Part shown: positions 14,981 through 59,480 of the stretch, piece by piece
Numbering within the stretch: the stretch's first letter is position 1
Layout of the letters: every line of letters starts with the position of its first letter
NCBI GenBank assembly: GCA_964017185.1
Contig: OZ024872.1
Location: 47,206,188 to 47,270,187, forward strand
Source: Rugalucina vietnamica
Taxonomy: Eukaryota > Mollusca > Bivalvia > Lucinida > Lucinidae
Reading direction: 5' to 3'
Length of the DNA stretch: 64,000 nt
Notes under the pieces: generated by a model
Databases searched by the model: none
Seen by the model: only the letters and a program-made list of their open reading frames with translations
What the model was told of the DNA's origin: nothing
Program-made: the position numbers and the translations under genes

Positions 14981-16927
14981 CCAGAGGACCAATGGTCCTG
15001 ATATCGCTCACCTGAGATTTTGTATTTGATGAACGACCTTTGGCTAAAATGGAAACTTGACCTCAAATACTCACATAATTATTTACACTATAAACTGTCT
15101 GTATCTACTAACTTTCAGATCTTTCTGGTAATATTTGACCTTTCTGTTTAAATTAACAGTTTAATAGGTCAAGGTCAACCCAATGTCATGATTTATATAA
15201 ACTAAGAAGGGCCACTTGCCTCCAGAGCCCCCAATGCTACATATCAAGTTTCATTGAAATCGGTCTACCGATTCCAGAAAAGTTGATTTTTAAAGGATTT
15301 TACCACATATATGGGCATGGCGGCCATCTTGGTCATGTGACCTGGACCATTTATATAAACTTTGGTTCCCCCTTCCTAAGGATACCACATATAAAATTTG
15401 GCTTTTTGGTGAAGTGGTTTCTGAGAAAATTAAGTTTGAAATTTAATATGTAAATGACCTTTGGCCAATGTCAAGAGATGACCTTGACCTTGAATACTCA
15501 TAGGACTTCATTAACTCAATAAGTTATATGTACGTACCATTTTTCAGGTCACAGGCCACAATACTTCCTGAAAAATCCAATGTTTTCCATTTTTTCCATT
15601 GAGAAATCTATGTGACCAATGTTGACCTTGCCATAAAATAGGTCAAGGTCAACCCAAGGGCATGATTTATACAAACTATGATGGGCCAGAGTCCCCAATG
15701 CTACATACCAAGTTTTATTGAAATCGGTCCAGCAGTTCCAGAGAAGATTTTTTAAGGTTTTTACCATATATGGGCATGGCAGCCATCTTGGTCATGTGAC
15801 CTAGACCATTTATACAAACTTTGATTTCCCTTCCCTAAGGATACCACATATAAAATTTGGCTTTGCTTGGTGAAGTGGTTCCTGAGAAAATTAAGTTTTA
15901 AATTTAATATGTAAATGACCTTTGGCCAAGGTCAAGAGATGATCTTGACCTTGAAAACTCATAGGACTTCATTAACTCAATAAGTTGTATGTATGTACCA
16001 ACTTTCAGGTCACAGGCCACAAAACTTCCTGAAAAACCCAATGTTTTCACTTTACATTGAAAAGCCTCTGTGACCAAAGTTGACCTTGCCATAAAATATG
16101 TCAAGGTCAACCAAAGGTCATGATTTATACAAACTATGATGGGCCAGAGTCCCCAATGCTACATACGAAGTTTTATTGAAATCGGTCCAGCAGTTCCAGA
16201 GAAGATTTTTTAAGGTTTTTACCATATATTGGCATGGCAGTCATCTTGGTCATGTGACCTAGACCATTTATACAAACTTTGATTTCCCTTCCCTAAGGAT
16301 ACCACATATAAAATTTGGCTCTGCTTGGTGAAGTGGTTCCTGAGAAAATTAAGTTTTAAATTTAATATGTAAATGACCTTTGGTGGCCAAGGTCAAGAGA
16401 TGATCTTGACCTTGAAAACTCATAGGACTTCATTAACTCAATAAGTTGTACATGTATGTATGTACCAACTTTCAGGTCACAGGCCACAAAACTTCCTGAA
16501 AAATCCAATGTTTTCACTTTACATTGAAAAGCCTATGTGACCAATGTTGACCTTGCCATAAAATATGTCAAGGTCAACCAAAGGTCATGATTTATACAAA
16601 CTATGATGGGCCAAAGTCCCTAATGCTACATACCAAGTTTTATTGAAATCGGTCCAGCAGTTCCAAAGAAGATTTTTTAAGGTTTTTACCATATATGGGC
16701 ATGGCGGCCATCTTGGTCATGTGACCTGGACCATTTATACAAACTTTAGTTCCCCCTTCCTAAGGATGCTCCACATGAAGTTTGGCATTGATTGGAACAG
16801 GGGTTCCAGAGGAGAAGATCTTTGAAAAGTGTGAACAACGACAGCGACGACAACGATAACGACAACGACGGAGCATGGCCATCCTATAAGCTCACCTTTT
16901 GAGCCTTTGGCTCAGGTGAGCTAAAAA
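14981..16927 (+). mobile_element. Family B tandem-unit cassette, copy 1
   Basis: The header is CCAGAGGACCAATGGTCCTG then GCTCACCTGAG. The core has four units of about 460 bp, each with GGGCATGGCGGCCATCTTGG (near 15314, 15773, 16233, 16698) and GGTCAAGGTCAACC. Then comes an ACGACAACGATAACGACAAC stretch, GGAGCATGGCCATCC, and the terminal hairpin AGCTCACC..GGTGAGCTAAAAA. It is inserted in a family-G element: GAGCAAAAATA precedes it and GGTATACCCCTG follows. Confidence 0.88.
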
Positions 16928-17010
16928 TAGGTATACCCCTGTATACCCCATTTTTACTATATAAAATTGAGGGATAATGGGGTATATATTACACGGACAT
17001 GGTTTTGTGA
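16928..17010. mobile_element. Family G right part, displaced by cassette B1
   Basis: GGTATACCCCTGTATACCCC..GGGGTATATATTACACGGACATG is the continuation of the G sequence broken at 14975. Confidence 0.7.
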
Positions 17011-17224
17011 TGTATCAAAATGTGAAGAACAAGCATAACTGCTTCTTGAACTCGTGAAATATTGAAATGTTACGTGACGCATCGAACCCACTCAAAAAGC
17101 GAACACCCTAATCACTACACTGAGAAAACTTGACAAGTTCGTCAGTACCAGTTTTTCACACAGATGTGAAAGAAAAATGTGAAATTAGAGATTCATCAAA
17201 ACTCAACCTGACCCTTTTAGAAAA

Positions 17225-18963
17225 CCAGAGGACCAATGGTCCTGTAAATGCTCACCTGAAATCTGGGATATGCGACCTCAGCTAATCTTGCCATAAAATA
17301 GGTCAAGGTCATCCCAGGGTCATAATTTATATAAATATTGTAGAGCTCCACTCACTGATGCTTCAGGCAGTTTCAAAATCATAGGTCTTCCCGTTTAGAA
17401 GAAAAAGATTTATGAAGGTTTTTGCTATTTATAGCAATGTCGGCCATCTTGGTCACGTGACCTGGACCATTTATATTAACTTTCATTACCCTTTCCTACC
17501 GATGCTCCACATAAAGTTTGGCTTTGATCAACTAAGCGGTTTCCGTGAAGATGTTTGAATATTTTATGGTCATATGTATAGCCCTGGGGCAGGGGCAGAC
17601 ATCCTGGGGAACATAAATCTTCTGTCCATTTGCATACCCCCAGCAAGTTTCCCCCCATTTAATTACATCTTACTAATTTTCCCCATTCATCTGCATGGGC
17701 AACCTATGTTGGCCTTGCCATAAAATAGGTCAAGGCCATCCCAAGGTCATGATTTATATAAACTTTGTAGAGCTCCTCTCCTTGATGCTTCATGCCAAGT
17801 TTCAAAATCATAGGCCTTCTGGTTCTGGAGAATATTTTTAAAGGTTTTTGCTATTTGTAGTTATGGCGGCCATCTTGGTCATGTGACCTTGACCATTTAT
17901 ATAAACTTTCATTCTCCCTTCCTAAGAATGCTCCACATAAAGTTTAGCTTTGATTGGCCAAGCAGTTTCAGAGGAGAAGATCTTTGAATAATATGGTAAT
18001 ATACATGTATATTGCCCCAGGGTGGGGGCAGACCTGTCCCTGGGGTCCATTTTCTTTTCAAAAGCACAAGTTTTCAGTCCATTTGCCCATTTCCATAAAG
18101 TTTTTCTCTTCAAATGACATTTTGACAATTTTCCCCATTCAAATGCATGGGCGACCTATGTTGACCTTGCCGTAAAATAGGTCAAGGTCGTTCCAAGGTC
18201 ATGATTTATATAAACTTTGTACAGCTCCTCTCCCTGATGCTTCATGCCAAGTTTCAAAATCGAAGGCCTTCTGATTCTGGAGATGTTTAAAGGTTTTCGC
18301 TATTTATAGCCATGGCGGCCATCTTGGTCATGTGACCATGACCATTTATATAAAGTTCCGTTCCCCAATCCCAAGGATACTACATATACATGTAGTTTGG
18401 CTTTGATTGGTCGAGTGGTTACTGAGAAAATTAAATTTTACATTTAATTTGTAAATGACCTTTGGCAAAGGTCAAGAAATGACCTTGACCTTTTATACTC
18501 ACAACACTTCATTAGCTCAACATGTCTGTATCTACCAACTTTCAGGTCACAGGCTACAAAACTTCCTGAAAAATTCAATGTTTTCACTTTTTTCCAATGA
18601 AAAGCTTATGTAAGCAAAATTAAAATAGGTCAAGGTCAACCCAAGGTCATGATTTATATAAACTATGATGGGCCAGAGTCCCCAGTGCTACATATCAAGT
18701 TTCGTTGAAATCGGTCCACCGGTTCCAGAGAAGATGATTTTTTAATGGTTTTTACCATATATGGGCATGGCGGCCATCTCCATCATGTGACCTGGACCAT
18801 TCATATAAACTTTCGTTCCCCCTTCCTAAGGATGCTGCACATGAAATTTGGCTTTGATTGGCCCAGCGGTTTCAGAGGAGATCTTCGACATTGTGGACGG
18901 ACGACGGAGCATGGCCATCCTATAAGCTCACCTTGTGAGCCTTCCGCTCAGGTGAGCTAAAAA
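17225..18963 (+). mobile_element. Family B tandem-unit cassette, copy 2
   Basis: Same header and terminal hairpin as copy 1. Four units place the CGGCCATCTTGGTCA block near 17431, 17868, 18311 and 18770 (spacing 437-459). TCAAGGTCA half-sites occur near 17300, 18180 and 18630. It ends GACGGACGACGGAGCATGG and the GAGCTAAAAA hairpin. Confidence 0.88.
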
Positions 18964-32873: not shown

Positions 32874-34647
32874 GAGGACCAATGGTCCTATAAACGCTCA
32901 CCTGAGATCTTGGATAAGTGACTTAAGTTGACCTTGCCATAAAATGGGTCAAGGTCATCCCAGGGTCATGATTTATATAAATTTTATAAAGCTCTATTGC
33001 CTGATGCTTCAAGCCAAGTTTCAAAATCATAGGCCTTCTGGTTCTGGAGAAAAAGATTTTTAAAGGTTTTTGCTATTTATAGCCATGGCAGCCATCTTGG
33101 TCATGTGACCTTGACCTTTTATATAAATTTTCATTCCCACTTCTACTAATTCTCCACTTAAAGTTTGGCTTTTATTGGTATAGCGGTTTCAGAGAAGTAG
33201 ATGTTTGAATATTATGGTCATATACATGTATATAGCCCTGGGGCAGGGGCAGACAACCTCCTGGGGTCAATTTTTTTTCCATAAACATAAATTTTTTGTC
33301 CATTTGCATACTCCCAGCAAGTTTCCCCCATTTAATTACATTTTACTATTTTTTTCCCATTCGAATGCATTAGCGACCCAAGTTGACCTTGCCGTAAAAT
33401 AGGTCAAGGTCATCCCAGGGTCATGATTTATACAAACTTTGTAGAGCTCCATTGCAAGGTGTGTCATGCCAAGTTTCAAAATAATAGGCCTTCTGGTTCT
33501 GGAGAAGAAGATTTTCAAAGGTTTTTGCTATTTATAGCCATGGCGGCCATCTTAGTCATGTGACCTTGACCATTTATATAAACTTTCAGGATGCTCCACA
33601 TAAAGTTTGGCTTTGATTGGCCAAGCGGTTTCAGAGAAGAAGATGTTTGAATATTATGGTCATATACATGTATATAGCCCCGGGGCAGGGGCAGACAACC
33701 CCCTGGGCCCAAAATATTTTCATAAACATAAATTTTCTGTCCATTTGCTCATTCCTAGCAAGTTTTCTGCCATTAAATGAAATTTTCCTATTTTTCCCAT
33801 TCAAATGCATGGGTGACCCAAGTTGACCTTGCCGTAAAAAAGATCAAGGTCATCCCAGGGTCATGATTTATACAAACTTTGTAGAGCTCCATTGCCTGAT
33901 GCTTCATGCCAAGTTTCAAAATCATAGGCCATCTGGTTCTGGAGAAGAAGATTTTTAAAGGTTTTTGCTATTTATAGCCATGGCGGCCATCTTGTCATGT
34001 GACCTTGACCCTTTATACAAAATTTCATTCCCTCTTTCTAAGGATGCTCCACATAAAATTTGGCTTTGATCGGCCAAGCGGTTTCAGAGAAGATGTTTGA
34101 ATATTATGGTCATATACATGTATACAGCCCCGGGGCAGGGGCAGACAACCCACTGGGCCCAAAATATTTTCATAAACATAAATTTTCTGTCCATTTGCTC
34201 ATTTCTAGGAAGTTGTCTGCCATCAAATGACATTTTCCTATTTTTCCTCATTCAAATGCATGGGTGACCCAAGTTGACCTTGCCGCAAAAAAGATCAAGG
34301 TCATCCCAGGGTCATGATTTATATAAACTTTGTAGAGCTCCATTGCCTCATGCTTCATGACAAGTTTCAAAATCATAGGCCTTCTGGTTCTGGAGAAGAA
34401 GATTTTTAAAGGTTTTTGCTATTTATAGCCATGGCAGCCATCTTGGTCATGTGACCTGGACCATTTATACAAGCTTTCGTTCCCCCTTCCTAAGGATGCT
34501 CCATATGAAGTTTGGCTTTGATTGGCCTGGCAGTTTCAGAGGAGAAGATCTTTGAAATTGTGGACGGACGGACGACGGACGGACGACGGAGCATAGGTAT
34601 CCTATAAGCTCACCTGTGAGCCTTCGGCTCAGGTGAGCTAAAAATTC
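32874..34647 (+). mobile_element. Family B tandem-unit cassette, copy 3
   Basis: Header CCAGAGGACCAATGGTCCTA. Four units place the GCCATGGCRGCCATCTT block near 33083, 33537, 33977 and 34430. Each unit has a CCGTAAAATAGGTCAAGGTC-type half-site and GCCCCGGGGCAGGGGCAGAC. It ends GACGGACGACGGACGG and the hairpin to GAGCTAAAAA. Confidence 0.9.
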
Positions 34648-43932: not shown

Positions 43933-44870
43933 TGAACTGTGTCATGAGAAAACCTGAATTTAGCATAATTATGCAATAAGAGCTGTCGCAGGACAGCGTA
44001 GCTCGCCTGACTTGTGCTTTGCCAGTAAATCTATTAAAATCTATGACCCCTGACATTGACCTCAAGGTCACTCAAGTGGATCGTGATGGTACAGAGTAAA
44101 ACTTCAGACCAATATTTACCAACATGCAAAGTATCAACTTGATTCATCTACATATTTGATATAGACTAATAACATAAAATTTCTAAGTCTGTGACCTTGA
44201 CCACAGGTGAGTTTAGATGCTACAGCATAAAACTTAAGAATAATATCTAACAGCAAAGTATCAACTAGATCCATCCATCTGTTCCAACAATATATTCAAA
44301 ACACTTTAAGCAAAAGCTTTAAAAAAAATTTCACAGTCTGTGACCTTGAACTCAAGGTTACCCAGGTGGGTCATGATGGTACAGCATAAAACTGTATCAA
44401 GAGATACAGACATATGAAAAAATAACCAAAAACTTTAACACAAAATTTCTAAGTCCGTGACCTTGACCTCAAGGTCACCCAGGTGGGTTGTGATGGTACA
44501 GCATAAAACTTCAGATCAATATCTATCTACATGCAAAGTATCAACTTGATCCATCAACACGTTAAAGAGATATAGACTCATAAAAACTTTAACCAAAAAC
44601 TTTAACATTTGAGCAACGCCAATGCCGACACCGGGGTGACTGCAATAGCTCTTCCTGTACTTTTGTACAGGCGAGCTAAAAACAAAGCTGCCGATCAGCT
44701 TTAAGGTAACTACACAGTTGATTGGTTGAACAGTAACTGCACAGCTGATCAGTACCTTTATTTCTATACTTTTTAAATACAAATTTCATAATATTCATCT
44801 TCTGTGGCTGTACAGAGAATGGTTTGTGCCAAGCATGGTTGTAATCAAAAGAATGTTTCCTTATGAAGCA
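43933..44870. mobile_element. Family A MITE, copy 12, split by cassette C1
   Basis: The left end GAACTGTGTCATGAGAAAAC is at 43933. The body resumes after the cassette with AACAAAGCTGCCGATCAGCT at 44681 and ends GAAGCAGCTC near 44870. Diverged, so older than copy 11. Confidence 0.65.
43976..44680 (+). mobile_element. Family C tandem-unit cassette, copy 1
   Basis: The header is ATAAGAGCTGTCGCAGGACA then GCGTAGCTCGCCTGAC. Units of about 170 bp carry GACCTTGACCTCAAGGTCAC, GGTACAGCATAAAACTTCAG and TATCAACTTGATCCATC. The end is GCCGACACCGGGGTGACTGC, AATAGCTCTTCC and the hairpin GTACTTTTGTACAGGCGAGC then TAAAA. Confidence 0.88.
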
Positions 44871-44886
44871 GCTCATGTAACAAAAT

Positions 44887-45121
44887 GAGCCTGTGCGTGA
44901 GAAAACCAACAATTTGGGTTCCGACCAGGTCCGACACAAACCGGCCTGTACAGCCACAGAAGATGGTTAGAAGCTTAAGATTTTGGATTTAAGAAGAAGA
45001 GGGATTGTACTATCTGTGTAGCTAAAACAAAGGCACTGATCAGCTTCGCGGTTACTGGGAAGCTGATCTGCGCCTTTTGTTTTCGCATATGCAAATTGTT
45101 GGTTTTCTCATGCGGCGGCTC
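44887..45121. mobile_element. Family A MITE, copy 13
   Basis: GAGCCTGTGCGTGAG to CATGCGGCGGCTC with AAAT on both sides. Confidence 0.92.
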
Positions 45122-45449
45122 AAATGTCATTGTTTCCATTGTGAAGCCATGCATTCATTCTTATCAATGTGTTTACATTTTGCAAGTACAAGTACACAGT
45201 TTCTTTAATAAGTCATAAAAAACAATTATATTCAAACTAACTAATTAAGTCATTATAACTTGTGATCATCGATAAGAGCTATTGCAGGACAACGCGCTTG
45301 ACTGCTTCTGACCTTTGTGAAATGTAAGGACAAACTCGACCTGTCATCCAAAGCATTATGCTCATATACCTTTTTGCCTAGATGCTATAAGGAAAAATCA
45401 CTGAACCATGACTCTTAACTATAACAATGCGTGCATTCGTAGTTCTTTC

Positions 45450-45552
45450 CAATGGTAAAAATGGTACCATTGGTAGACAAATTCCGTTCAAGGTTTTACC
45501 AATAGTACCATTGGTAATGCCATTGGTACCAATGGTACCAATGTTACCAACA
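45450..45552. repeat. ACCATTGGT palindrome array, left block
   Basis: Repeated CCAATGGTA / TACCATTGG words, including GGTACCATTGGTAGAC and CATTGGTACCAATGGTACC. The inverted counterpart is at 46893-47012. Confidence 0.75.
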
Positions 45553-45770
45553 TACGGCAGCAAATGATGCAGACAGACTACAGCGTGGGTAATTCTACCA
45601 ACGCAGGAAAAGTCACGTGATTCAATATGGCGAGCCTAAAATATATCATGAATTTCGTAAATAAGCAATATTTTTGTCATACATGCAAATGTAAATGTTA
45701 TAAACAACACGATATACATGAAGTAAATGAGAAAGACAAAAACAAGTGAGGTATATTGATCAATATGATA

Positions 45771-46878
45771 ATAAGAGCTGTCGCAGGACAGCGTAGCTCG
45801 CCTGCCTTGTGCTTTGCCACTAAATCTATAAAATCTATGACCAAAGACATTGACCTCAATGTCACTCAGGTGTGTCGTGATACTTCAGACCAATATCTAC
45901 CAACATGCTAAGTTCAACTTGATCCATCTACATATTTGATATAGACTTATAACATAAAATCTAAGTCTGTGACCTTGACCACAGGTGAGTCAAGATGCTA
46001 CAGCATAATAAAAGAATAATATCTAACAGCAAAGTATCGACTAGATCCATCCATCTGCTCCAGCAATATACAGTTCAAAACACTTTAAGCAAAAGCTTTA
46101 ACATAAAATTTCAAAGTCTGTGACCTTGAACTCAAGGTCACCCAGATGGGTCATGATGGTATAGCATAAAACTTCAGACCAATATCTACCAACATGCAAA
46201 GTATCAACTTGATCCATCTACATATCCAAGAGATATAGACTTATAAAAACTTTAACCAAAAACTCTAACACAAAATTTCTAAGACTGTAACCTTGACCTC
46301 AAGGTCACCCAGGTGGGTCATGATGGTACAGCATAAAACTTTAGACCAATATCTACCAAGATGCCAAGTATCAACTTGATCCATCAACAACTTCAAGAGA
46401 TATAGACTTATAAAAACCTTAACCAAAAAACTTAAACACAAAATTTCTAAGTCCGTGACCTTGACCTCAGGGTCACCCAGGTGGGTCATGATGGTACAGC
46501 ATAAAACTTCAGACCAATATCTACCAACATACAAAGTATCAACTTGATCCATCAACAACTTCAAGAGATATAAACTTATAAAAACTTTAACCAAAAACTT
46601 TAACACAAAATTTCTAAGTCCGTGACCTTGACCTCAAGGTCACCCAGGTGGGTCATGATGGGACAGCATAAAACTTCAGACCAATATCTACCAGCATGCA
46701 AAGTATCAACTTGATCCATCCACAACTTCAAGAGATATAGACTCATAAAAACTTTAACCAAAAACTTTAACATTTTGAGCAACGCCGACGCCGACGCTAA
46801 CGCCGACGCTAATGCCGACGCCGACGCTGGGGTGACTGCAATAGCTCTTCCTGTACTTTCGTACAGGCGAGCTAAAAA
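45771..46878 (+). mobile_element. Family C tandem-unit cassette, copy 2
   Basis: The same header and tail as C1, with about five to six units of about 170 bp. The half-site pair TGACCTTGACCTCAAGGTCA recurs near 46290 and 46625, with variants elsewhere. Before the tail is a GCCGACGCTAACGCCGACGC microsatellite. Minus-strand frames at 46265-46926 are by-products of the units. Confidence 0.9.
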
Positions 46879-46892
46879 TGCCACCATGTGAT

Positions 46893-47012
46893 CTACCAAT
46901 GGTAACATTGGTACCAATGGTACCATTGGCAGCAGAAATCGTTCAGGGTTTTCTGGTTACCATTGGTAAAAATGGTACCAACATTACCATTGGTAGATTT
47001 ACAGATTTTTCC
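46893..47012. repeat. ACCATTGGT palindrome array, right block
   Basis: CTACCAATGGTAACATTGG, TACCAATGGTACCATTGG and related words. Together with 45450-45552 it forms an inverted pair separated by cassette C2. Confidence 0.75.
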
Positions 47013-47039
47013 ATTGGGAGAACCCCGAACGTAGCCAGG

Positions 47040-48120
47040 CTAAGGTTTAAAGGTCTCACTCATATTGTGAAAGAGTTACATGTATATATTCATATACCAT
47101 TTGAGTGCCGAGATACAACAAAAAATCACTGAACCGTGAAATAAGGTCACACTGACCTATAAGGACTTTAGGGTCAAAGGTCTCGTCATTTTTACTCAAT
47201 GTGAAAGAAATATTATTTGAGTGTTGAGATATAAAGCAAAATCACTGAGCCACGTAATTAGGTCATAGTGACCTATCAGTATGTTTGGGTCATACTCATT
47301 CATAATCTGAAAGAAGTATGTAAAAATACCAACTGAGTGTCGAGATGTAAGGCTAAATCACTGAACCATGAAATTAGATCACAGTTACCCAAGAAAACTT
47401 GAAGGTCAAAGGTCTTGTCATAAACAAACATACCATGAAAGGAGCATGTTCACATACCAATTGGGTGCCGAGATATAAGGCAAAAATCACTGAACCGTGA
47501 AATTAGGTCACAGTGACCTATAAGTACTTTAGGGTCAAAAGTCTGGTCATACTCATTCATAATCTGAAAGAAGTATGAAAATATACCAACTGAGTGTCAA
47601 GATATAATGCAAAATCATTGAACCATGAAATTAGGTCACAGTGACCTAGGACTACTTTAGGGTCAAAGGTCTTGTCATACACAAACATACTGTGAAAGAT
47701 ATATGTTCATAGTGCTGAGATATAAGGCAAAATCACTGAACCGTAAAATTAGGTCACAAGGGTCAAAGTTCTTGTCATAAGCAAAAATAGTGTGAAAGAA
47801 GTATTTTCATAAACCAATTGAGTGCCGAGATATAAGGCAAACTCACTGAACCATGAAATTAGGTCACAGTGACCTATAAGAATGTTGGGGTCAAAGGTCT
47901 GGTCATACTCACTCATAATATGAAAGAAGTATGAAAATATACTAATTGAGAGTTAAGATAGATGGCAAAATCACTGAAATGTGAAATTAGGTCACAGTGA
48001 CCTATAAGTATATTGGGGCCAAAGGTCTGGTCATACTCATAATCTGAAAGAAGTACGAAAATATGCTAATAGAGTGTCATGATATAAGGCAAAATCACTG
48101 GACCATGGAAAGTAGGTCAA
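47040..48120 (+). repeat. Tandem array of about 120-bp units with perfect ERE palindromes
   Basis: Eight to nine units with the shared words GTGCCGAGATATAAGGC, AAATCACTGAACC and GGTCATACTCATTCATAATC. Six carry AGGTCA-nnn-TGACCT with perfect half-sites, at 47144-47158, 47260-47274, 47505-47519, 47633-47647, 47861-47875 and 47989-48003. Units near 47376, 47748 and 48107 have decayed or deleted sites. Confidence 0.92.
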
Positions 48121-48545
48121 CCCAATCTTACCGTCATGACACACAAGTCAGTGTCACAAAGATAAAAGATGAAGGACCAACCATCTTCCTAAGTTGTTTC
48201 TATTTAGAAATAAAAAGAAAAAACATTTCAAGAAGTTCTAGATTTTGACCTCTAGCCCCACCCCCCTGACTCCGACTCTGAGGTCCGATGTCATGGAACA
48301 GAAAGTGTATGAAGAATGAATGCTTTATGATAAGTTGTTGTCAAGATATGGACTCTTTGTCAAAGTAACACAACAGCACATCCATTTTTTTTACAGTGTT
48401 CTAGTTTTTAACCTCTAGCCCCACTCACCAGGCATGGATCCAGGAATCCGATGCCATGAAATGAAACTCTACCCTACAGGGTACCTATGCTCCAAGTATG
48501 AAAGCCCTCTGATAAAAGGTTTTCAAGATATAGACTTCTAGAATA

Positions 48546-49773
48546 TGTATGTGGGGTTATTCTTTACTACGCAACATGGTAGCTGAGCTCAGTGTTAAAG
48601 GGAAGCGGATACTTATATCTATACTGTCATCCTTACATACATATGGTGTCCTATCAAAGGAATGTTTTTTCAAAATATTTGATGTGAAAATAAGTTCACA
48701 GCTTCTATATGGTGCTGAAGTTTGGGGGCTAAAAGGCTATGACTGTCTAGAGCGAATACAGAACTACGCGTGTAAGCGGTATATGAATATTGGCCAAAAT
48801 GCATGTAACGCAGCTGTGCTAGGAGACTGTAACAGGTTCCCAATGTACATTACAACAGCTTAGTGGGCTTTCAAATATTGGTTCAAGATATTAAATACGG
48901 TATGTCTTCAGATAGATTTGTGAAAAAATGTTAATTAATGATGGTTAATGAAGATCGATTAGGCCATACAAACTGGGTAAGTGAATTAAAGGACTTGTTG
49001 TGTTCGAGCGATTTTGGTTATGTATGGAATAACCAAGGTGTTACTGACGTTAGCGTTTTCATGGCAGCGTTTGAGCAACGGCTAAAAGACATATATATAC
49101 AGAACTGGCATGATTCGATAGACAATAATCAAAAGTTATTATTTTATAAACAATATAAAACTATATATACACCAGCCAAATATCTTGACATTTTGAAAGT
49201 TAGAAAATATAGACATTATGTTTCAAGTTTTAGAAGCAGTTGTCATAGTTTAGAAATCGAGAGAGGTCAGCATATGAAAACAGCGAGATCCATTAGACTG
49301 TGTGGACTTTGTGGTGAAGCAGTTGAGGATGAATTTCATTTCTTATTAGTCTGTAAAGCTTACAGTGATCTCAGGAATGAACATTTACCGAGGAAATATA
49401 TTATTCACCCTAATCATAATAAATTCAATATACTGATGGCATCTGAAAATGAATCTATCATAATTTCGTTAGCAACATATTTGTACCGTGCCTTCAAATT
49501 AAGACAGGACCTGTTATCTACATAAACTGGAACATAGAAATAAGTAGAAACTAAACAATGTTACACTATTGCTTGAATACATACAAACCAAAATGCTTAC
49601 ACATTGATTGGTTTATGCTCATTTATATGGCTCAATTTAGAGGTATAGTAATTGTGCTATATAATTCAGATTCTATATGTTGCATGATTATGATTATTGG
49701 ATGTACTTGAAGTGGGCCGGTGGCCTACATCAATAAAGCTATGTTATGTTATGTTATGTTATGAATACTATAC
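48546..49773 (+). mobile_element. 5'-truncated LINE with (TTATG)n tail
   Basis: It starts inside ORF2 at 48549 and ends GGCCTACATCAATAAAGC followed by TATGTTATGTTATGTTATG. It interrupts a family-F unit: GACTTCTAGAATA on the left is continued by AATACTATACCACAG on the right. The apparent target duplication is 4-5 bp. Confidence 0.88.
48549..49525 (+). pseudogene. LINE ORF2 C-terminal remnant
   Basis: The first segment (48549-48863) reads SSQLLYGAEVWGLKGYDCLE then RIQNYACKRYMNI, the post-RT region. An in-frame TAG follows YITTA, with WAFKYWFKILNT beyond it, then a frame change. The second segment (48938-49525) includes LGHTNWVSELKDLLCSS, a Cys/His finger CGLCGEAVEDEFHFLLVC, and ends LRQDLLST at TAA. 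Broken, hence a pseudogene; clade not determined. Confidence 0.85.
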
Positions 49774-50398
49774 CACAGAAAAGCCACTATCAGTGATGTT
49801 CTATGAATGAAAGAATGAATGAAAGCCAACCCTACAGGGTATCAATGGCCCAAGTATCAATGTTTTCTGATGAGTGGTTGTCAAGATATGGACTTCTAGA
49901 AAACTATACTACAGAAAAGCCATTTTTGAAGGTGTTCTTGATTTTAACCTCCAGCCCCACCCCCTGGCCTGGACCCAGAGGCCCGATGCCATGGAATGAA
50001 AGCTAACCTTACAGGGTATCTATAGTCCAAGTATGAATGCTTTGTGATGAGTGGTTGTCAAGATATAGACTTCTAGAAAACTATACCGCAAGTGTGACAC
50101 GCACGGGAACGGGAACATGGACACCCGGGTGACTGCAATAGGTCTCTGCAATTCGTGTAGTAGATAAGCACATTTTTTGTGGAAGAATTAGGGCAGGCAT
50201 TACAATCTTAAGGAAATATATGCCCGAATACAGGATTCCTCAAGAAGATGAACAGATAATAATCCCATTTAAGTTCAAATTTAACGTCCCACTAACAAAT
50301 ACATTATGGAGACGGAAATCTAATGCTGGATTTCATTACTGGTTTTATATCAGTCAAGCCACACTTATGCACAAATTTCATTCAAGGAGTTCCGAGTA

Positions 50399-51300: not shown

Positions 51301-54300
51301 CTGAAAAGATCAGAAAATGTTTATTATGATGACAATATAATTGAGCCACCTCCTGGGAAAACCAACAATGTGGTTTCCAAACAGGTCTGACACAAATCAG
51401 GCTGCACAGTCACAGAAGCAGGCTAGAAGCTTGAAATTTCGGAGTTAAGAAGAAGAGGAAGTGTACTATCCGTGCAGCGAAAACAAAGGCGCTGATCAGC
51501 TTCGCGGTTACCGGGAAGCTGATCTGCGTCTTTGTTTTCGCATATGCAGATTGTTGGTCTTTCCACGAGGTGGCTCATATCACAGGAAGTTCTATACATG
51601 TTTTTTTTTTTTCTACTATCTAAAATACTTCTCCTTTCTTTTCCCTACATGCAATCACTCTAATTTCAAGGCTCTATCCATCTTTGTAGTTTTACAGCAT
51701 TTTTTCAGTATGTTTTGTGATCTGGTCAGAAACCATGTTAGCAGATTTGTTCATGAAACTGCTCATTTTATGCATTATCGCATAGCAGATGCAGATTATC
51801 ACTTTCACCATATACCTTCCAATCAAATAAGCACTGAGTTATAGCATAGAGTATTGTCACTGGATATTCAAGCTCAAGAATATTTTATGTGCTTCTTGCT
51901 GATCAAGACATGCTATTAAACAAAATACTTTTCATTTATAGTGATCAGAACTATTTTTTTTTTCGCCATCATGCTGTATACGTGGCTTGTCCCAAAAGTC
52001 CCGTTACACATGCATTTTATTCTGAACGCATAGCAGGAACCGACAACAGTTACTCATGAAGAATAATTGGCCATATTGGAACTTATTTTACTGTTCAAAA
52101 TGATACTCACTTCAATGACCTCACTGCTACAGTTACCTTGGTTACCATAAGTAGGCATGACCGGAGCAAGTCAAATTATGCAAAATGTTTACTTAATTTC
52201 TATTTTTCACAATCTGCTAAATCAACATAGGTATAATGTGATCATTTAGAAAAATATACCAGCCTAAATACTATTTTATGAGCATCATTTAGTGATAATT
52301 TTATGAAATTTGAGATTGATTTGATAGTTTGGGAGACAAATAAAGAAGCTTACCTATAAAAATTCAACGACAAAATTACGACGTCGGCAAAAACATGCGG
52401 AGCAAAAATACAGGGTCGCTATATTTAAACATCTAAAATATGTTCTTTAATGGAAACCAAGCAAATATTTAGCTTGATATTAGTTGGTGACTTCACTACT
52501 AGAACACAACACCTACTTTTATAACGATATATCAGCGAACAGTAATATTACTTGACCTAACGAAACATGGGCAGCAGTTAACAGTGGTAAGCATTTCGTT
52601 AATTATTCTAATTATGCATGGCTGATCTTTATAACTTTATTTTGACGATTTGCTTATAAATATATTACTCAGATTTCCAAATATATCCTACGGCATCGTT
52701 TAGCTAAATAAAAACCTAATTTTGAAATAGATTTTTTTGTTTGTTGTGTATTTATCCGAACGGCAAAATATTAAGAAAAAATGAAAATTAACGGCAACGT
52801 CATTAGACCTGCTCCGCTGCAGTAGGGAAGCAACGGTTCAAATCTCCACTGCAGTTTAACAAATGCACGTAGCAGTACGAAAACTTGCCCCCAAAGACCT
52901 TAGATATAGTACTTGGTGATCATAGGTGTTGTAAGCTCTGACGAGTTGTTATCAAGGCAAAACAGTGAGTGTAATGGAACTTTTGGGACAACCCTCGTAC
53001 TTGAACAAAATACTTATCCCCATAAATTTATAGTATATAATGTCAAGTACACAGCACACATTGTATAATTCTTAAAGTGTATGATAAATTGAGCCACAAC
53101 ACAAGAAAACCTGTCTTCAGGGTTTTCAACAAGGTCTGACACAAACCGGCCTGTGCAGCTACAGCAGATGGCTGGAAGATTGAAATTTCTGATTAAAGTT
53201 CAGGGTGTTGTAAACGTCGTTATGCAGCGTTAGTGCGACGTTGCTTTGCGGCGCCAGCGGAACAAGAATCGACGCTCTTATGTCGCGCCTTTTTGAACCG
53301 GAGAAAGTTGTAGTGTTTACGTCATTCAGTACGAATTTCACATTTTTCTCCATTAAAGACTGCGACAAATTTACCAAATTTTCACCAAAACATTGAAAAT
53401 GAGATTTTCTGCCGTAAAAGGCATTTATTGTAATTGTTACGTCAGTGGCACATTAAAATAAGACGCAGGTTCGCGTCACGTTACGTCGCGGAAAATACCA
53501 AACCAGAGGACCAATGGTCCTGTAAACGCTCACCTGAGATCTGCTACATATGCAAATAAACATGTTTGAATATTATGGTATTTAGCTCCAGTGCAGGGGC
53601 AGATGAAGCCCTTGGGCCATTTGTTTTCAGAATAATCAATATCCTGTCCATTTGCCAATTTCTATTTTATTTATTCCCTTCAAATGACATGTTTACAGTT
53701 TTCCCCATTCTAATGCATTGGCAACATATGTTGACCTTGTCGTCAAATAGGTCAAGGTCTCCACAGGGTCATGATTTATATATACATTGTAGTACTTTAG
53801 CCATCCATGCTTCATGCCAAGTTTCTTTGAAATCGGTCCACCGGTTCCGGAGAAGAAGATTTTTGAAGGGTTTTTACCATATATGGGCATGGCCGCCATC
53901 TTGGTCATGTGACCTGGATTATTTATATACACATTGGTTACCCCATCCTATAGATGCTGCACATAAAATTTGGCTTTGATTGGCCAAGCGGTTTCAGAGG
54001 AGATGATGTTTGAATATGATGGTAATGTACAGGTATATTGCCCCGGGGTGGGGGCAGATGAGCCCCTGGGGTCAAAATTTTTCAGAATCATCAATATTCA
54101 GTCCTACTGCCCATTTCCTGCAAGATTTCCACTTTAAATGACATTTTAAAATTTTTCCCCATTCAAATGCATTGGAGACCTATGTTGACCTTGCCGTAAA
54201 GAAGTTCAAGGTCATCACAGGGTCACGATTTATATACACAATGTAGTGCTTGAGCCATCGATGCTTCATGCCAAGTTTTGTTGAAATCGGTCAATCGGTT

Positions 54301-56541
54301 CTGGAGAAGAAGATTTTTGAAGGGTTTTTACCATATATGGGCATGGCGGCCATCTTGGTCATGTGACCTGGATTATTTATATACACATTGGTTCTCCCTT
54401 CCCATAGATGCTTCATGTAAAATTTGGCTTTGATTGGCCAAGCGGTTTCAGAGAAGAAGATGTTTGAATATTATGATAATATACATGTATATTGCCCCGG
54501 GGTGGGGGCGGATGAGCCCCTGGTGCCCAATTTTTTTCAGAATCATTAATATTCAGTCCTACTGCTCATTTTCTGCAAGATTTTTCCTTTAAATGACAAT
54601 TTAACAATTTTTCCCATTCAAATGCAAAGGCGACCTATGTTGACCTTGCCGTAAAATAGGTCAAGGTCACCGCAAGGTCATGATTTATATACACATTGTA
54701 GTACTTGAGTCATCGATGCTTCATGCCATATATGGGCATGGCGGCCATCTTGGTCATGTGACCTGGATTATTTATATACACATTGGTTCCCCCTTCCCAT
54801 AGATGCTTCATGTAAAATTTGGCTTTGATTGGCCAAGCTGTTTCAGAGTAGAAGATCTTTGAAAATTGTGGACGACGGACGGACGGACGACGGACGGACG
54901 GACGGACGACGGAGCATGGGTATACTAAAAGCTCACCTTGTGAGCCTGACGGCTCAGGTGAGCTAAAAAGCACTACCATACATAGCAAAACGTCAAATAG
55001 CACAAAAACGAGCATGGTTGTGAAGGACTTTTTTGTCAAGCAACCTGTTCCAAATTGATTCAAGCAGATAATATCAGTTTTTAAAAGAATTTCATTGTGG
55101 AATTTAAGATAAAAATATGTTTATGTGCGAAATCCGACATCTTTTTCCCTTTTCGCCATTGAGTTCAATGGCAAAAATGTTTTTTTTGGACTGCAGCCAT
55201 GTAGCTCAAAAACTAATCCAGTAGTCAAGGAATATTTTTGCATATTCGGCTGGGGGAGCATTTAATACATTGATATGCAAAAAAAAAAAAAAAAATCCAT
55301 CGTGGCGTTTTTTACAACACCCTGACCTTAAGAAGAAAAGGAATTGTACTATCCATGTAGCGGAAACAAAGGCGCTGAGCGGTTACCGCGAAGCTGATCT
55401 GCGCCTTTGTTTTCGCCTATGCAAAATCTGGTTTTCTCATGATGCGGCGCAAATGTTAACCGTGATCTTGGTGTTCCTTAAACGACAACAAATGCCACTT
55501 ATTCTTACCTCATCACAGTCATCAGCTATCATGGCCTTTATTGCTTTTAACACCAAGTGAGAGCCTGAAATCAAATGAACACAGAATTAAACCTTTATGC
55601 AATGCTACGAAGGCATTCTACAACCTAGATAAAACAGATATCATAATAATTTATTATTATGGGGATTTAATACAGCACTTTTTCTAACATGCCTTAAAGT
55701 AATATTAAGCCTGTTTTACAGCAAAATTACTTTCATCTGTACATGCGTATATCTTTTTTACCAAAAATTAAAATATGGTTTTAGGTGGTTAAGTTATATT
55801 TACCTGTTTTACTATTACAAAGATGTTAACTGCTTGGCAGGAAGAACTACTTACAGTATAATTGAGCGGCTTGAGCCGCCACATGGGAAAACCCAACAAT
55901 CAGCATGGGCGAAAACAAAGGCACAGATCAGCATCGCAGTTACTGTGAGCTGCTCAGTGCCTTTGTTTTCGCTACATGGATAGTACAATTCCTCTATTTT
56001 CTAAATCCAAAATTTCCTGCTTCTAACCATCTTCTGTGACTGTACAGTCTGGTTTGAGTCGGACCTGGTCGGAACCCCAAATTGTTGGTTTTCTCATGCA
56101 CAGGCTCAATAGAACCTTTCTCTTCCTGTTGATTCAGTTTTTCAGCTATTACAGACTAAACAATTATTTACTGCATGTTTTATCCGTCTTAGTTAAGAGT
56201 TGATAGAATATGACCTTGACAACCATCTTATGATAATTTTCATTGAGATTAATATGTCAAATTGGAAATTTTGTCCAAGCTTAGGGTTTTGATACTGAAG
56301 AAAGTGATATCTATTTTCTACTTCCATAAAGATCATAGAGCATTGCACTAGAGAATATTGCTTGCTGCTGTACTCACTTGAGAATATCAATATGCAAGCT
56401 TGCATAGTCATACTTGCCTATTTTCTTGCGTCTGTACTCAGAGTCAATTGCTAACATAGCTATGTAGCCTCTTCGCACCATCTTTTTGTGCATATCTAAC
56501 TTGCAAACAATAGCTCCTACACATTTATCGCCACTCATTGC
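51163..56541 (-). CDS. NAA30: NAA30, catalytic subunit of N-terminal acetyltransferase C (C-terminal half)
   Basis: Three minus-strand exons (56541-56418, 55564-55509, 51300-51163) join in frame to about 105 residues and a TAA. They read [100 protein letters not shown] and KLWLR. This follows animal NAA30 almost residue for residue. NatC acetylates N-terminal Met followed by hydrophobic residues in the cytoplasm (family knowledge). The GNAT acetyl-CoA loop is YRRKKIGS, with Lys where RxxGxG expects the first Gly. The upstream exon with the SEPYSIY-type motif and the N-terminus were not found in the window. Intron 51301-55508 holds several transposons. Confidence 0.93.
51343..51576. mobile_element. 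Family A MITE, copy 14
   Basis: GAGCCACCTCCTGGG to CACGAGGTGGCTC, inner palindrome GCTTCGCGGTTACCGGGAAG. In the NAA30 intron, 43 bp upstream of the terminal exon. Confidence 0.9.
51577..51980. other. NAA30 intron; diverged family-A end
   Basis: TTTTGTGATCTGGTCAGAAACC..CATGAAACTGCTC at 51712-51763 is an old family-A right end. Otherwise nothing. Confidence 0.5.
51981..52997. mobile_element. Non-autonomous mariner-like element
   Basis: The ends CGTGGCTTGTCCCAAAAGTC and, inverted, CGAGGGTTGTCCCAAAAGTT are mariner-type TIRs. TA dinucleotides flank both sides (51979-51980, 52998-52999). 1017 bp with no transposase frame. Confidence 0.8.
53197..55327. mobile_element. 2.1-kb TTAA-type element carrying a nested family-B cassette
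   Basis: TTAA at 53193-53196 and 55328-55331. The inverted ends are AGTTCAGGGTGTTGTAAA and TTTACAACACCCTGACC. TTAA targeting suggests piggyBac or Kolobok relatives. The flanks of the nested cassette are CpG-rich on the left (ACGTCGTTATGCAGCGTTAG) with no transposase frame. Confidence 0.88.
53503..54968 (+). mobile_element. Family B tandem-unit cassette, copy 5
   Basis: Header CCAGAGGACCAATGGTCCTG. The GGCCATCTTGGTCATGTGAC block is near 53890, 54350 and 54741; the last unit is shortened by about 70 bp. Then GGACGACGGACGGACGGACG and the GAGCTAAAAA hairpin. Inside the TTAA element. Confidence 0.9.
55509..55564 (-). CDS. NAA30: NAA30 internal exon
   Basis: Acceptor TGATTTCAG|GCTCT and donor GATGAG|GTAAGA. 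It completes Gly from the previous exon and encodes [18 protein letters not shown]. Confidence 0.94.
55565..55872. other. NAA30 intron, nothing else recognised
   Basis: AT-rich intron sequence between the exon and family-A copy 16. Confidence 0.6.
55873..56107. mobile_element. Family A MITE, copy 16
   Basis: GAGCCGCCACATGGG to CTCATGCACAGGCTC. A stray GAGCGGCTT directly precedes the left end, possibly from an older copy. Confidence 0.88.
56418..56541 (-). CDS. NAA30: NAA30 internal exon, followed by a GC-AG intron
   Basis: Acceptor ATTCTTTCAG|GCAATG. It encodes [40 protein letters not shown] and I plus the first base of a Gly codon. The donor is AAAATAG|GCAAGT, a GC donor in the strong AG|GCAAGT context typical of GC-AG introns. 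No GT donor fits the frame. Confidence 0.92.
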
Positions 56542-56591: not shown

Positions 56592-57105
56592 ATAAGAGCT
56601 GTCACAGGACAACGTAGCTCGCCTGACTAGTGCTTTGCCACTAAATCTATCAAAATCTATGACCCAAGACCTTGACCTCAAGGTCACCAAGGGTGAGTCA
56701 TGATGGTACTGCATAAAACTTCAGACCAATATCTATAAGCATGCAAAGTATCAACTTGATACATGTACATGTTCAAGACAGGTAGACTTATAAAAAGTTT
56801 AACCAAAAACTTAAAACACAAAATTTCCAAGTCTGTGACCTTGACCTCAAGGTCACCCAGGCTAAGTCATGATGGTACTGCATAAAACTTCAGACCAATA
56901 TCTACCAACATGCAAAGTATCAACTTGATCCATCATTATGTTCAAGAGATATAGACTTATAAAAACTTAAACCAAAAACTTAACACAAAAGGTCACCCAG
57001 GGTAGGTCATGATGGTACAGCATAAAACTTCAGACCAATATCTACCAACATGCAAAGTATCAACTTGATCCATCAACATGTTCAAGAGATATAGACTTGA
57101 TTCTT
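56592..57105 (+). mobile_element. Family C tandem-unit cassette, copy 3 (truncated)
   Basis: Header AATAAGAGCTGTCACAGGAC and about three units with GACCTTGACCTCAAGGTCAC and AAACTTCAGACCAATATCTA. It ends abruptly near TATAGACTTG without the terminal hairpin. Confidence 0.85.
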
Positions 57106-57611: not shown

Positions 57612-59352
57612 CAGAGGACCAATGGTCCTGTAAACGCTCACCTGAGTCTGCTGCATATACCAATAAACATGTTTGAATATTATGGTATTTAACCCCAGTG
57701 CAGGGGCAGATGAAGCCCTTGGGCCGTTTTCTTTTTTCAGACTAATCAATATTCTGTCCATGGATGCTTCACGCCAAGTTTCATTAAAATCAATCTATTG
57801 GTTTCAGAGAAGAAGATATTTGAAGGGTTTTTACCATATATGGGCATGGTGGCCATCTTGGTCATGTGACTTAGATTATTAATATACACATTGGTTCTCC
57901 CATCCTATAGATGCTTCACATAAAATTTGGCTTCAATTGGCCAAGTGGTTTAAGAGGAGAAGATGTTTGAATATTATGGTAATATACATGTATATTGCCC
58001 CGGGGTGTGGACATATGAGTCCTTATGTCCATTTTTTTTTCAGAATCATTAATATTTAGTCCTACTACCCATTTCCTGCAAGATTTTCACCTCAAATGAC
58101 TTTTTAAAAGTTTTCCCCATTCCAATGCATTGGCGACCTATGTTGACCTTGTCGTAAAATAGGTCAAGGTCACTACAGGGTCATGATTTATATATACATT
58201 GTAGTACTTCAGCCATTGGTGATTCATACCAAATTTCTATGAAATCGGTCCTCAAAATTCGGAGAAGAAGATTTTTGAAGGGTTTTTACCATATATGGGC
58301 ATGGCAGCCATCTTGGTTATGTGAACTAGATAATTTATATATACATTAATTCCCCTATTCCATAGATGCTTCACATACAATTTGGCTTTGATTTGCCAAG
58401 CAGTTTCAGAGGAGAAGATGTTTGAATATTATGGTAATATACATGTATATTGCCCCGGGGTGGGGGCAGATGAGCCCCTGGGGTCCAATTTTTTTCAGAA
58501 TCATTAATATTCAGTCCTACTGCCCATTTCCTGCAAGACTTTCACTTTAAATGACATTTTAAAAGTTTTCCCTATTCAAATCGTTGGCGACCTATGTTGA
58601 CCTTGCCGTAAAAAATGGTCAAGGTCATCACAGGGTCATGATTTATATATACATTGTAGCACTTCAGCCATCGATGCTTCATGCCAAGTTTCTTTGAAAT
58701 CGATCCACCTGTTCTGGAGAAGAAGATTTTTGAAGGGTTTTTCCCATATATGGGCATCACGGCCATCTTGGTCATGTGACCTGGATTATTTATATACACA
58801 TTGATTACCCCTTCCTATTGATGCTTCACATAAAATTTGGCTTTGATTGGCCAAGCGGTTTCAGAGGAGATGATGTTTGAATATTATGGTAATATACATG
58901 TATATTGCCCCGGGGTGGGGGCATATGAGGCCCTGGGGTCCAATTTTTTTTCAGAATCATTAATATTCAGTCCTACTGCCCATTTCCTGCAAGACTTTTA
59001 CTTTAAATGACTTTAAATGACATTTTAAAAGTTTTCAACATTCAAATGCATTGGCGACCTATGTTGACCTTGCCGTAAAATAAGTCAAGGTCATCACAGG
59101 GTCATGATTTATATATACATTGTAGTGCTTGAGCCATCAATGCTTCATGCCAAGTTTCTTTGAAATTGATCCAACTGTTCTGGAGAAGAAGATTTTTGAA
59201 GGGTTTTTACCATATATGGGCATCACGGCCATCTTGGTCATGTGACCTGGATTATTTATATACACATTGATAACCCCTTCCTATTGATGCTTCACATAAA
59301 ATTTGGCTTTGATTGGCCAAGCGGTTTCAGAGGAGATGATGTTTGAATATTA
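57612..59352 (+). mobile_element. Family B tandem-unit cassette, copy 6 (right end missing)
   Basis: Header CCAGAGGACCAATGGTCCTG. The GGGCATnnnGGCCATCTTGG block is near 57840, 58298, 58751 and 59217. The sequence breaks off after TTTGAATATTAT at 59352 with no terminal hairpin, and CpG-rich unique sequence begins. Confidence 0.88.
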
Positions 59353-59480
59353 TCACCGTGTCCATTCGAAACGCATGAAAAGAGGTCGTAACGCATGATC
59401 GGCGGCATTTTCACGTATGATTGCGGTAGTTTCCTTCGGATTCGCCGCCATTTTCGGAGGAAACTTTAGCGGTAAGTTTT
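59353..59480. promoter_or_regulatory. CpG-rich candidate promoter / first exon
   Basis: Unique, CpG-containing sequence. On plus, GCCGCCATTTTCGGAGG (YY1-like) precedes TTTAGCG|GTAAGT, a good donor at 59472. On minus, ATG at 59452-59450 in a strong Kozak context (AAAATGGCG) opens MAANPKETTAIIRENAADHA, LRPLFMRFEWTR and a stop at the cassette edge. It could be the NAA30 5' exon region or the start of a plus-strand gene; neither is confirmed. Confidence 0.3.

Follow-up and report, generated by a model that had tools for sequence, protein, structure and literature searches.

Arrays of estrogen response element palindromes in a candidate rolling-circle element of Rugalucina vietnamica seem to be preserved while the element spreads

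Introduction

The Cg_HINE/pearl elements of the oyster are described as non-autonomous Helentrons with satellite-like central repeats (PMC7492417). In Caenorhabditis, Helitrons are reported to carry heat-shock elements, with 86 of these upstream of col-52 in one example, and the authors of that study speculate about selfish co-option (PMC6927752).

Here we describe a tandem array in the bivalve Rugalucina vietnamica, in which most units carry a palindrome of the estrogen response element (ERE) type, AGGTCA and its inverse separated by three nucleotides (IR3). It lies in a stretch of 64,000 nucleotides, hereafter the window (contig OZ024872.1, positions 47,206,188 to 47,270,187). The element in which the array is found resembles the oyster elements in having inverted subterminal repeats, a terminal palindrome, a microsatellite and thousands of dispersed arrays. 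As in the oyster, one or two consecutive arrays are present, the oyster consensus monomers being 138-181 bp (PMC7492417), and the parts of the window element also fit the description of HINEs in PMC4067079. The main text of the oyster paper describes no nuclear-receptor sites and is without the terms 'ggtca', 'response element' and 'transcription factor' (PMC7492417). A combined query of the open-licence literature that tied repeats to receptor sites returned no paper.

Results

The array and the element copy around it were found to comprise the following features (window coordinates, strand where one is assigned, description).

45272-45425: one element end, with terminal subTIR/hairpin ATAAGAGCTATTGCAGGACAACG, flank and start of the leader unit; 85-86% identity to bases 1-154 of the young elements L007, L047 and L054
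45426-47039: later insertion, foreign to the element, TACCAATGG-rich and TIR-like, holding a second HINE; alignment gap relative to young elements, inverted TACCAATGG arms
47040-47121, plus strand: remainder of the leader unit, a unit type without ERE
47122-48090, plus strand: eight full units of 110-129 bp, opening in family order (CAC, TAG, ...CCC, then units with CAG spacer)
47144-47158: ERE-type IR3, perfect, spacer CAC
47260-47274: IR3, perfect, spacer TAG
47376-47390: IR3, decayed, AGATCACAGTTACCC
47505-47519: IR3, perfect, spacer CAG
47633-47647: IR3, perfect, spacer CAG
47751-47758: IR3 cut by a deletion, AGGTCACA
47861-47875: IR3, perfect, spacer CAG
47989-48003: IR3, perfect, spacer CAG
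48091-48119, plus strand: partial end unit with a single half-site
48120-48546, plus strand: common flank and start of the element's second array (units of about 178 bp; TRF of young L047 and L007)
48547-49816: second insertion, foreign to the element; alignment gap
49817-50164, plus strand: what remains of the second array, together with a short microsatellite rich in GC and the decayed opposite terminus, GGGTGACTGCAATAGGTCTCTGCAATTCGTGTAG; 89% identity to bases 1799-2160 of the L007 element

All six perfect AGGTCAnnnTGACCT palindromes of the original prediction were located (47144, 47260, 47505, 47633, 47861, and 47989), and the spacers were as stated there, with CAG in four of the six, CAC at 47144 and TAG at 47260. 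When up to two mismatches were allowed the window contained 15 palindrome matches, compared to 2.14 on average and at most 6 in 100 shuffles. The palindromes occupy the same offset across the eight full units. Repeat units were found as predicted, although their length ranged from 110 to 129 bp instead of 116-128 bp. Neighboring units had been described as decayed, which is correct for units 3 and 6 and incorrect for the flanking pieces, i.e., the leader and the right-end partial unit. The palindrome of unit 3 differs from the AGGTCACAGTGACCC that its unit type has elsewhere, and that of unit 6 has lost its second half. The leader unit was without ERE in all 27 clusters listing a leader (32 array clusters fetched), and the right-end partial unit had one half-site in those fetched elements that extend to this junction.

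Within the eight window units the ERE does not stand out as the most conserved stretch, as 23 of 114 windows of 15 columns matched the consensus equally well or better. In this old copy the palindrome arms had diverged less than the remaining columns (2/90 vs 88/938, p = 0.0097), a difference that fails to isolate selection after insertion because the divergence includes older subfamily history.

In the genome (1,089,854,562 bases counted in 47 contigs) we found 22,978 perfect IR3 palindromes and 20 matches to the reversed pattern. With a spacer of 4 bp (IR4) the numbers were 260 and 25, respectively; comparing the IR3 and IR4 counts, the spacing is strict at 3 bp. The perfect IR3 sites, among those listed, were mostly located in arrays with a spacing of about 128 bp. 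A 30-base stretch of the element start had 1,662 exact matches, with 0 for the control, a count that misses diverged copies because mismatches were barred. No exact unit matches were present in the viral-contig and genome-contig collections.

Relatives of the array were fetched at 11 loci by means of the palindrome (L005-L015) and at 30 loci by means of a 25-base probe located elsewhere in the unit (L046-L075), all within the first 22 Mb of contig C1 and thus from one chromosome. One locus (L013) was without unit and one (L009) repeats L008; the other 39 carry units of the ERE-array family. They gave 44 clusters, four loci having more than one, and some of these clusters are pieces of one split copy.

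The array had been claimed to be mobile, and its unit was indeed found to be the core of a dispersed element of HINE/Helentron type. In the window, a single old element (45272-50164) has been broken up by two insertions, and young elements align to it in three blocks (45272-45425, 47040-48546, and 49817-50164), the second having 83% identity to bases 158-1706 of the L007 element. The subterminal repeats are inverted: AAGAGCTATTGCAG at 45274 and CTGCAATAGCTCTT, which lies at the opposite end of a window HINE, are exact reverse complements, and young family members terminate in AGAGCTGTCGCAG and CTGCAATAGCTCT. By eye, one end has a terminal palindrome or stem-loop, GCTGTCGCAGGACAGC, while for the other young terminus a fold of -13.8 kcal/mol was predicted with RNA parameters and no shuffle control. 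Microsatellite repeats of ACGCGC/ACGGGA precede the GTGACTGCAATAG terminus. The central satellite-like arrays are that of about 128-bp units and a second one of about 178-bp units. In the oyster elements the left flank is, by convention, the one beside the microsatellite; with the same convention applied here, the element probably runs along the minus strand of the window.

Related elements have both termini and the ordered series of unit types in common, and their flanks are distinct. The order of unit types, read in the 32 larger clusters from the first 31 loci, was largely fixed: leader, CAC, TAG or TAT, CAG with ...CCC, TAT, and then CAG units. The insertion sites were independent: a left flank was readable in 28 of the 32 clusters and was common only to L008 and L009, while the left flanks of L048 and L059 were 70% alike, through poly-A. 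The left terminus was readable in 28 clusters (exact motif) and the right in 27 of 32 rows, with none in four rows and a match in L062 that looks spurious. The 17 cleanly bounded elements measured 2,166-2,687 bp (median 2,417) and carried 5-10 copies of GGTCAnnnTGACC each (median 8); 20 bounded elements were listed, of which L008, L009, and L059 were set aside, as they ended at the terminus of a neighboring element.

Some further observations were made on these loci. The element copies of L008 and L009 (C1:1875300-1886500) lie about 6.3 kb apart, and because their left flank is identical they probably represent a duplicated larger segment. The TACCAATGG-rich inverted-repeat insertion in the window copy (45426-47039) holds a complete HINE (45771-46878), which therefore lies inside an older HINE. 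In the second insertion, the frame at 48678-48857 resembles a retrotransposon protein by eye; Pfam matched 0 families for the one 60-amino-acid frame searched.

To compare mutations in the palindrome arms with those in the rest of the unit, units were typed by similarity. A variant present in a single element only was termed private and read as post-insertion. A variant present in at least two elements (shared), or a difference between type consensuses (fixed), was termed inherited and read as coming from transposing lineages. Forty loci entered the analysis and 39 yielded 399 units in the 44 clusters; the test covered 347 units of six types, after 22 from small groups and 30 of the leader type had been set aside. 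The arms make up 12 columns, and the rest is the 88 columns untouched by the probe.

In the 44 clusters the arms had 24 private, 5 shared and 1 fixed event, and the rest had 198, 109, and 49, respectively. Inherited relative to private events were therefore 6/24 in the arms and 158/198 in the rest (odds ratio 0.31, p = 0.0066; several tests were run, and all p-values are per test and uncorrected). When the arm shape was placed at 113 other positions, the number of inherited events was higher every time. For the loci fetched with the ERE-free probe only, the corresponding numbers were 2/26 and 125/190 (p = 0.0002), and a bootstrap over clusters for all loci gave a median odds ratio of 0.28 (95% 0.13-0.57). 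With type thresholds of 0.06, 0.10, and 0.12 the p-values were 0.0070, 0.057, and 0.055 for all loci and 0.0014, 0.0052, and 0.0078 for the ERE-free loci; at the two looser thresholds, all loci included, one other placement equaled the arms in having few events. Shared variants without the fixed differences gave p = 0.044, 0.033, 0.154, and 0.145 across thresholds from 0.06 to 0.12. When CpG columns were dropped the values were 0.0125 (all loci) and 0.0006 (ERE-free), and for transversions only 0.023 and 0.0037. Recurrent mutation could mimic inheritance, and the transversion test answers this only in part.

The ratio of inherited to private events was 0.25 in the arms, 1.00 in the 3-base spacer and 1.69 in the upstream core. 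It was 0.45 in a DR1-like box, GGGTCAAAGGTC, 0.57 in the tail of this box, and 0.74 and 0.84 in two other segments. At the unit level, private rates in the ERE-free loci were 0.0079 in the arms and 0.0082 in the rest, while the rates for all mismatches were 0.0094 and 0.0252. The 12 arm columns contained a single fixed change, at the outermost position and not within the GGTCAnnnTGACC core, compared to 49 fixed changes in the 88 other columns, and the core was intact in 329 of 368 ERE-type units. A first Fisher table, which set fixed differences against all within-type mismatches and thereby pooled shared with private ones, gave no contrast (1/25 vs 49/681, p = 0.48; p = 0.77 with the leader type included).

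The expected excess of conservation in the ERE over other parts of the unit thus applies to variants spreading along with the element and to differences between unit types, and not to private mutations. Because inherited variants are depleted in the arms and private ones are not, the arms seem to be kept in transposing lineages and not after insertion. Judged from these sequences, they would be preserved while the element spreads and decay freely once a copy has landed.

AGGTCA is also abundant outside the array. By the score used it ranks first among the 6-mers of the window for over-representation (171 vs 29.8 expected), and it is found in five tandem-repeat families with units otherwise unlike by blastn, although family A has just 0.6 per unit. 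A core, CCGTGAAAT(AT)AGGTCA, links family C to family F and to family BDGI (0/300 shuffles each). The link between EH and BDGI was weaker (5/300), and a direct comparison of F and BDGI gave no link (67/300). The geometries in the window were DR0 (17), DR5 (15), ER2 (8), and IR3 (6), the last confined to the ERE array. Within the window alone, the half-site columns were more conserved in BDGI (shift p = 0.002) and, by substitutions, in the ERE-array family (shift p = 0.008, but 0.156 with gaps); in three of the five families, A, C, and EH, they were not.

In a 455-bp family (15235-18667, 33002-34341, 53802-54708, and 57758-59131) no placement was conserved better than the half-site columns (0.952 vs 0.824, shift p = 0.002). 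The DR0 sequence AGGTCAAGGTCA occurs 136,183 times in the genome and its reversed pattern 122 times. In the window it is located in BDGI (15222-18885, 32915-34563, 53559-54871, and 57666-59364) and EH (44054-46771 and 56670-57099), outside the ERE-array family. Among the places listed in the genome its spacings were near 143-152, 168, and 454-465 bp, and it is therefore assigned to other repeat families.

A search of the genome for zf-C4 domains gave 75 exon matches, of which 20 pieces were read. An ER-type DNA-binding domain, known from two exon pieces alone (C4:6684950 and 6684082), has the P-box CEGCKA, and its best PDB match was AncSR1 (4oln), followed by ER (4aa6, 1hcp, and 1hcq). An ERR-type domain, likewise in two pieces (C4:58458112 and 58448690), has the P-box CEACKA and was most similar to ERR gamma (8ifo). 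We take CEGCKA to mark ER and CEACKA to mark ERR. A dimeric receptor of the ER kind is likely to bind the arms. A gastropod (snail) ER is reported to bind GGTCAnnnTGACC without ligand (PMC3778743), and the oyster TR to bind DR0 to DR5 in gel shifts (PMC4692385).

Elsewhere on the same contig (C4:30355688-30356251 and 30361368-30361521) nine zf-C4 matches cover profile positions 2-25 with a spacing of 82 bp within each group. They look as if a receptor exon had turned into a tandem repeat.

Discussion

The best reading of these data appears to be a selfish element that exploits receptor-type sites. It has two parts, which we hold jointly with a rough probability of 0.55: that the tandem repeats of the array form the inner part of an old rolling-circle element of about 2.4 kb that is non-autonomous (Helentron/HINE, pearl-type), and that selection on the element's own success keeps the palindrome arms. 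Copies with intact arms would parent further copies, and after insertion the arms would decay like the rest. The host ER-type receptor, or possibly ERR or another AGGTCA-binding receptor, may bind the array in germ line-forming cells. Such binding would open the chromatin at the element and thereby aid its copying by Helentron proteins. We infer all four of these: selection as the cause, receptor binding at the elements, the tissue, and the link to mobilization.

Alternatively, the palindrome may have arisen once in an AGGTCA-rich unit and become common only by hitch-hiking with the element, the apparent constraint being due to chance or sampling. The location of most listed sites in arrays, the similar private rates in arms and rest, the borderline p-values at two clustering settings and the pooled table without contrast all agree with this. 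We nevertheless find it unlikely, since inherited variants were depleted in the arms to the lowest level of 114 placements while the spacer and most flanks were undepleted, and since fixed changes were so rare in the arm columns relative to the others. An equally small probability is given to a different binder, such as the Helentron Rep/endonuclease or a host zinc-finger factor, or to a hairpin, with the likeness to an ERE being incidental. The CCGTGAAAT(AT)AGGTCA core common to families C/F and C/BDGI speaks for a different binder, and because this core extends past the half-site in several families the site could be longer and element-specific. However, the upstream part of the core was undepleted, and a longer conserved core is therefore not favored as the target. 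The position of the sole fixed arm change outside the GGTCAnnnTGACC core also argues against another binder, as does the finding that DR0, a geometry reported to be bound by the oyster TR (PMC4692385), is the commonest close arrangement of AGGTCA in the window, in families other than the ERE array. Perfect palindromes are able to form hairpins, but among 2,203 arm pairs 85 were broken (one unit type contributing with its fixed outer mismatch) and 0 were compensated, for which reason a hairpin is not favored.

The original prediction had proposed a regulatory or decoy platform, where copies are kept for regulating host genes or titrating receptors. Receptor-type domains are present in the genome, and the arms of the old window copy are less diverged than its other columns. 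The latter divergence, however, mixes in older subfamily history, and private mutations were undepleted in the arms of the sampled young copies, so that host exaptation is not favored as a general reason for conservation. The prediction was to be refuted by equally fast mutation of ERE bases and other bases of the unit; this is what we found for private mutations, and the opposite for inherited ones. The split points to use by the element instead of a general host platform, which we consider highly improbable.

Selection on the element's own success could extend beyond this family. It is conceivable, though we hold it only tentatively, that a rolling-circle class in this lineage lives off host nuclear receptors, and that unlike families (IR3 on the one hand, DR0/DR5 on the other) keep their half-sites as occupancy in the germ line licenses copying. 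If true, the genome would be a side-effect reservoir of about 23,000 IR3 and 136,000 DR0 sites in an animal with disputed steroid-receptor biology. For the ER-type receptor, perfect ERE palindromes in the tens of thousands would either belong to its binding landscape or weigh heavily on it, which bears on the function of ER-type receptors in invertebrates. The element would also swamp any genome-wide ERE scan in R. vietnamica. More generally, comparing inherited and private mutations offers a way to tell from sequence alone whether a transposon-borne site serves the transposon or the host.

Other transposons are known to distribute sites for host factors. The Alu family is reported to have spread about 100,000 nuclear-receptor sites, but these are DR2 retinoic-acid response elements and not IR3, they arose largely via CpG deamination, and they lie in Alu repeats and not in rolling-circle tandem arrays (PMC1785376). 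The ISX element of Drosophila miranda likewise scatters binding sites for a host complex; there, selection in the host population favors better sites for dosage compensation (PMC4384637), whereas private mutations show no constraint on the arms here. Response elements for p53 in fuzzy tandem repeats resemble our array in being repeats with factor sites and are described as intronic (PMC3386156). The nearest precedent is the Caenorhabditis Helitrons with heat-shock elements, which are also rolling-circle elements with many sites for one host factor. In that case the factor is HSF-1 and not a nuclear receptor, and function was deduced from ChIP and expression instead of from a contrast between inherited and private mutations (PMC6927752).
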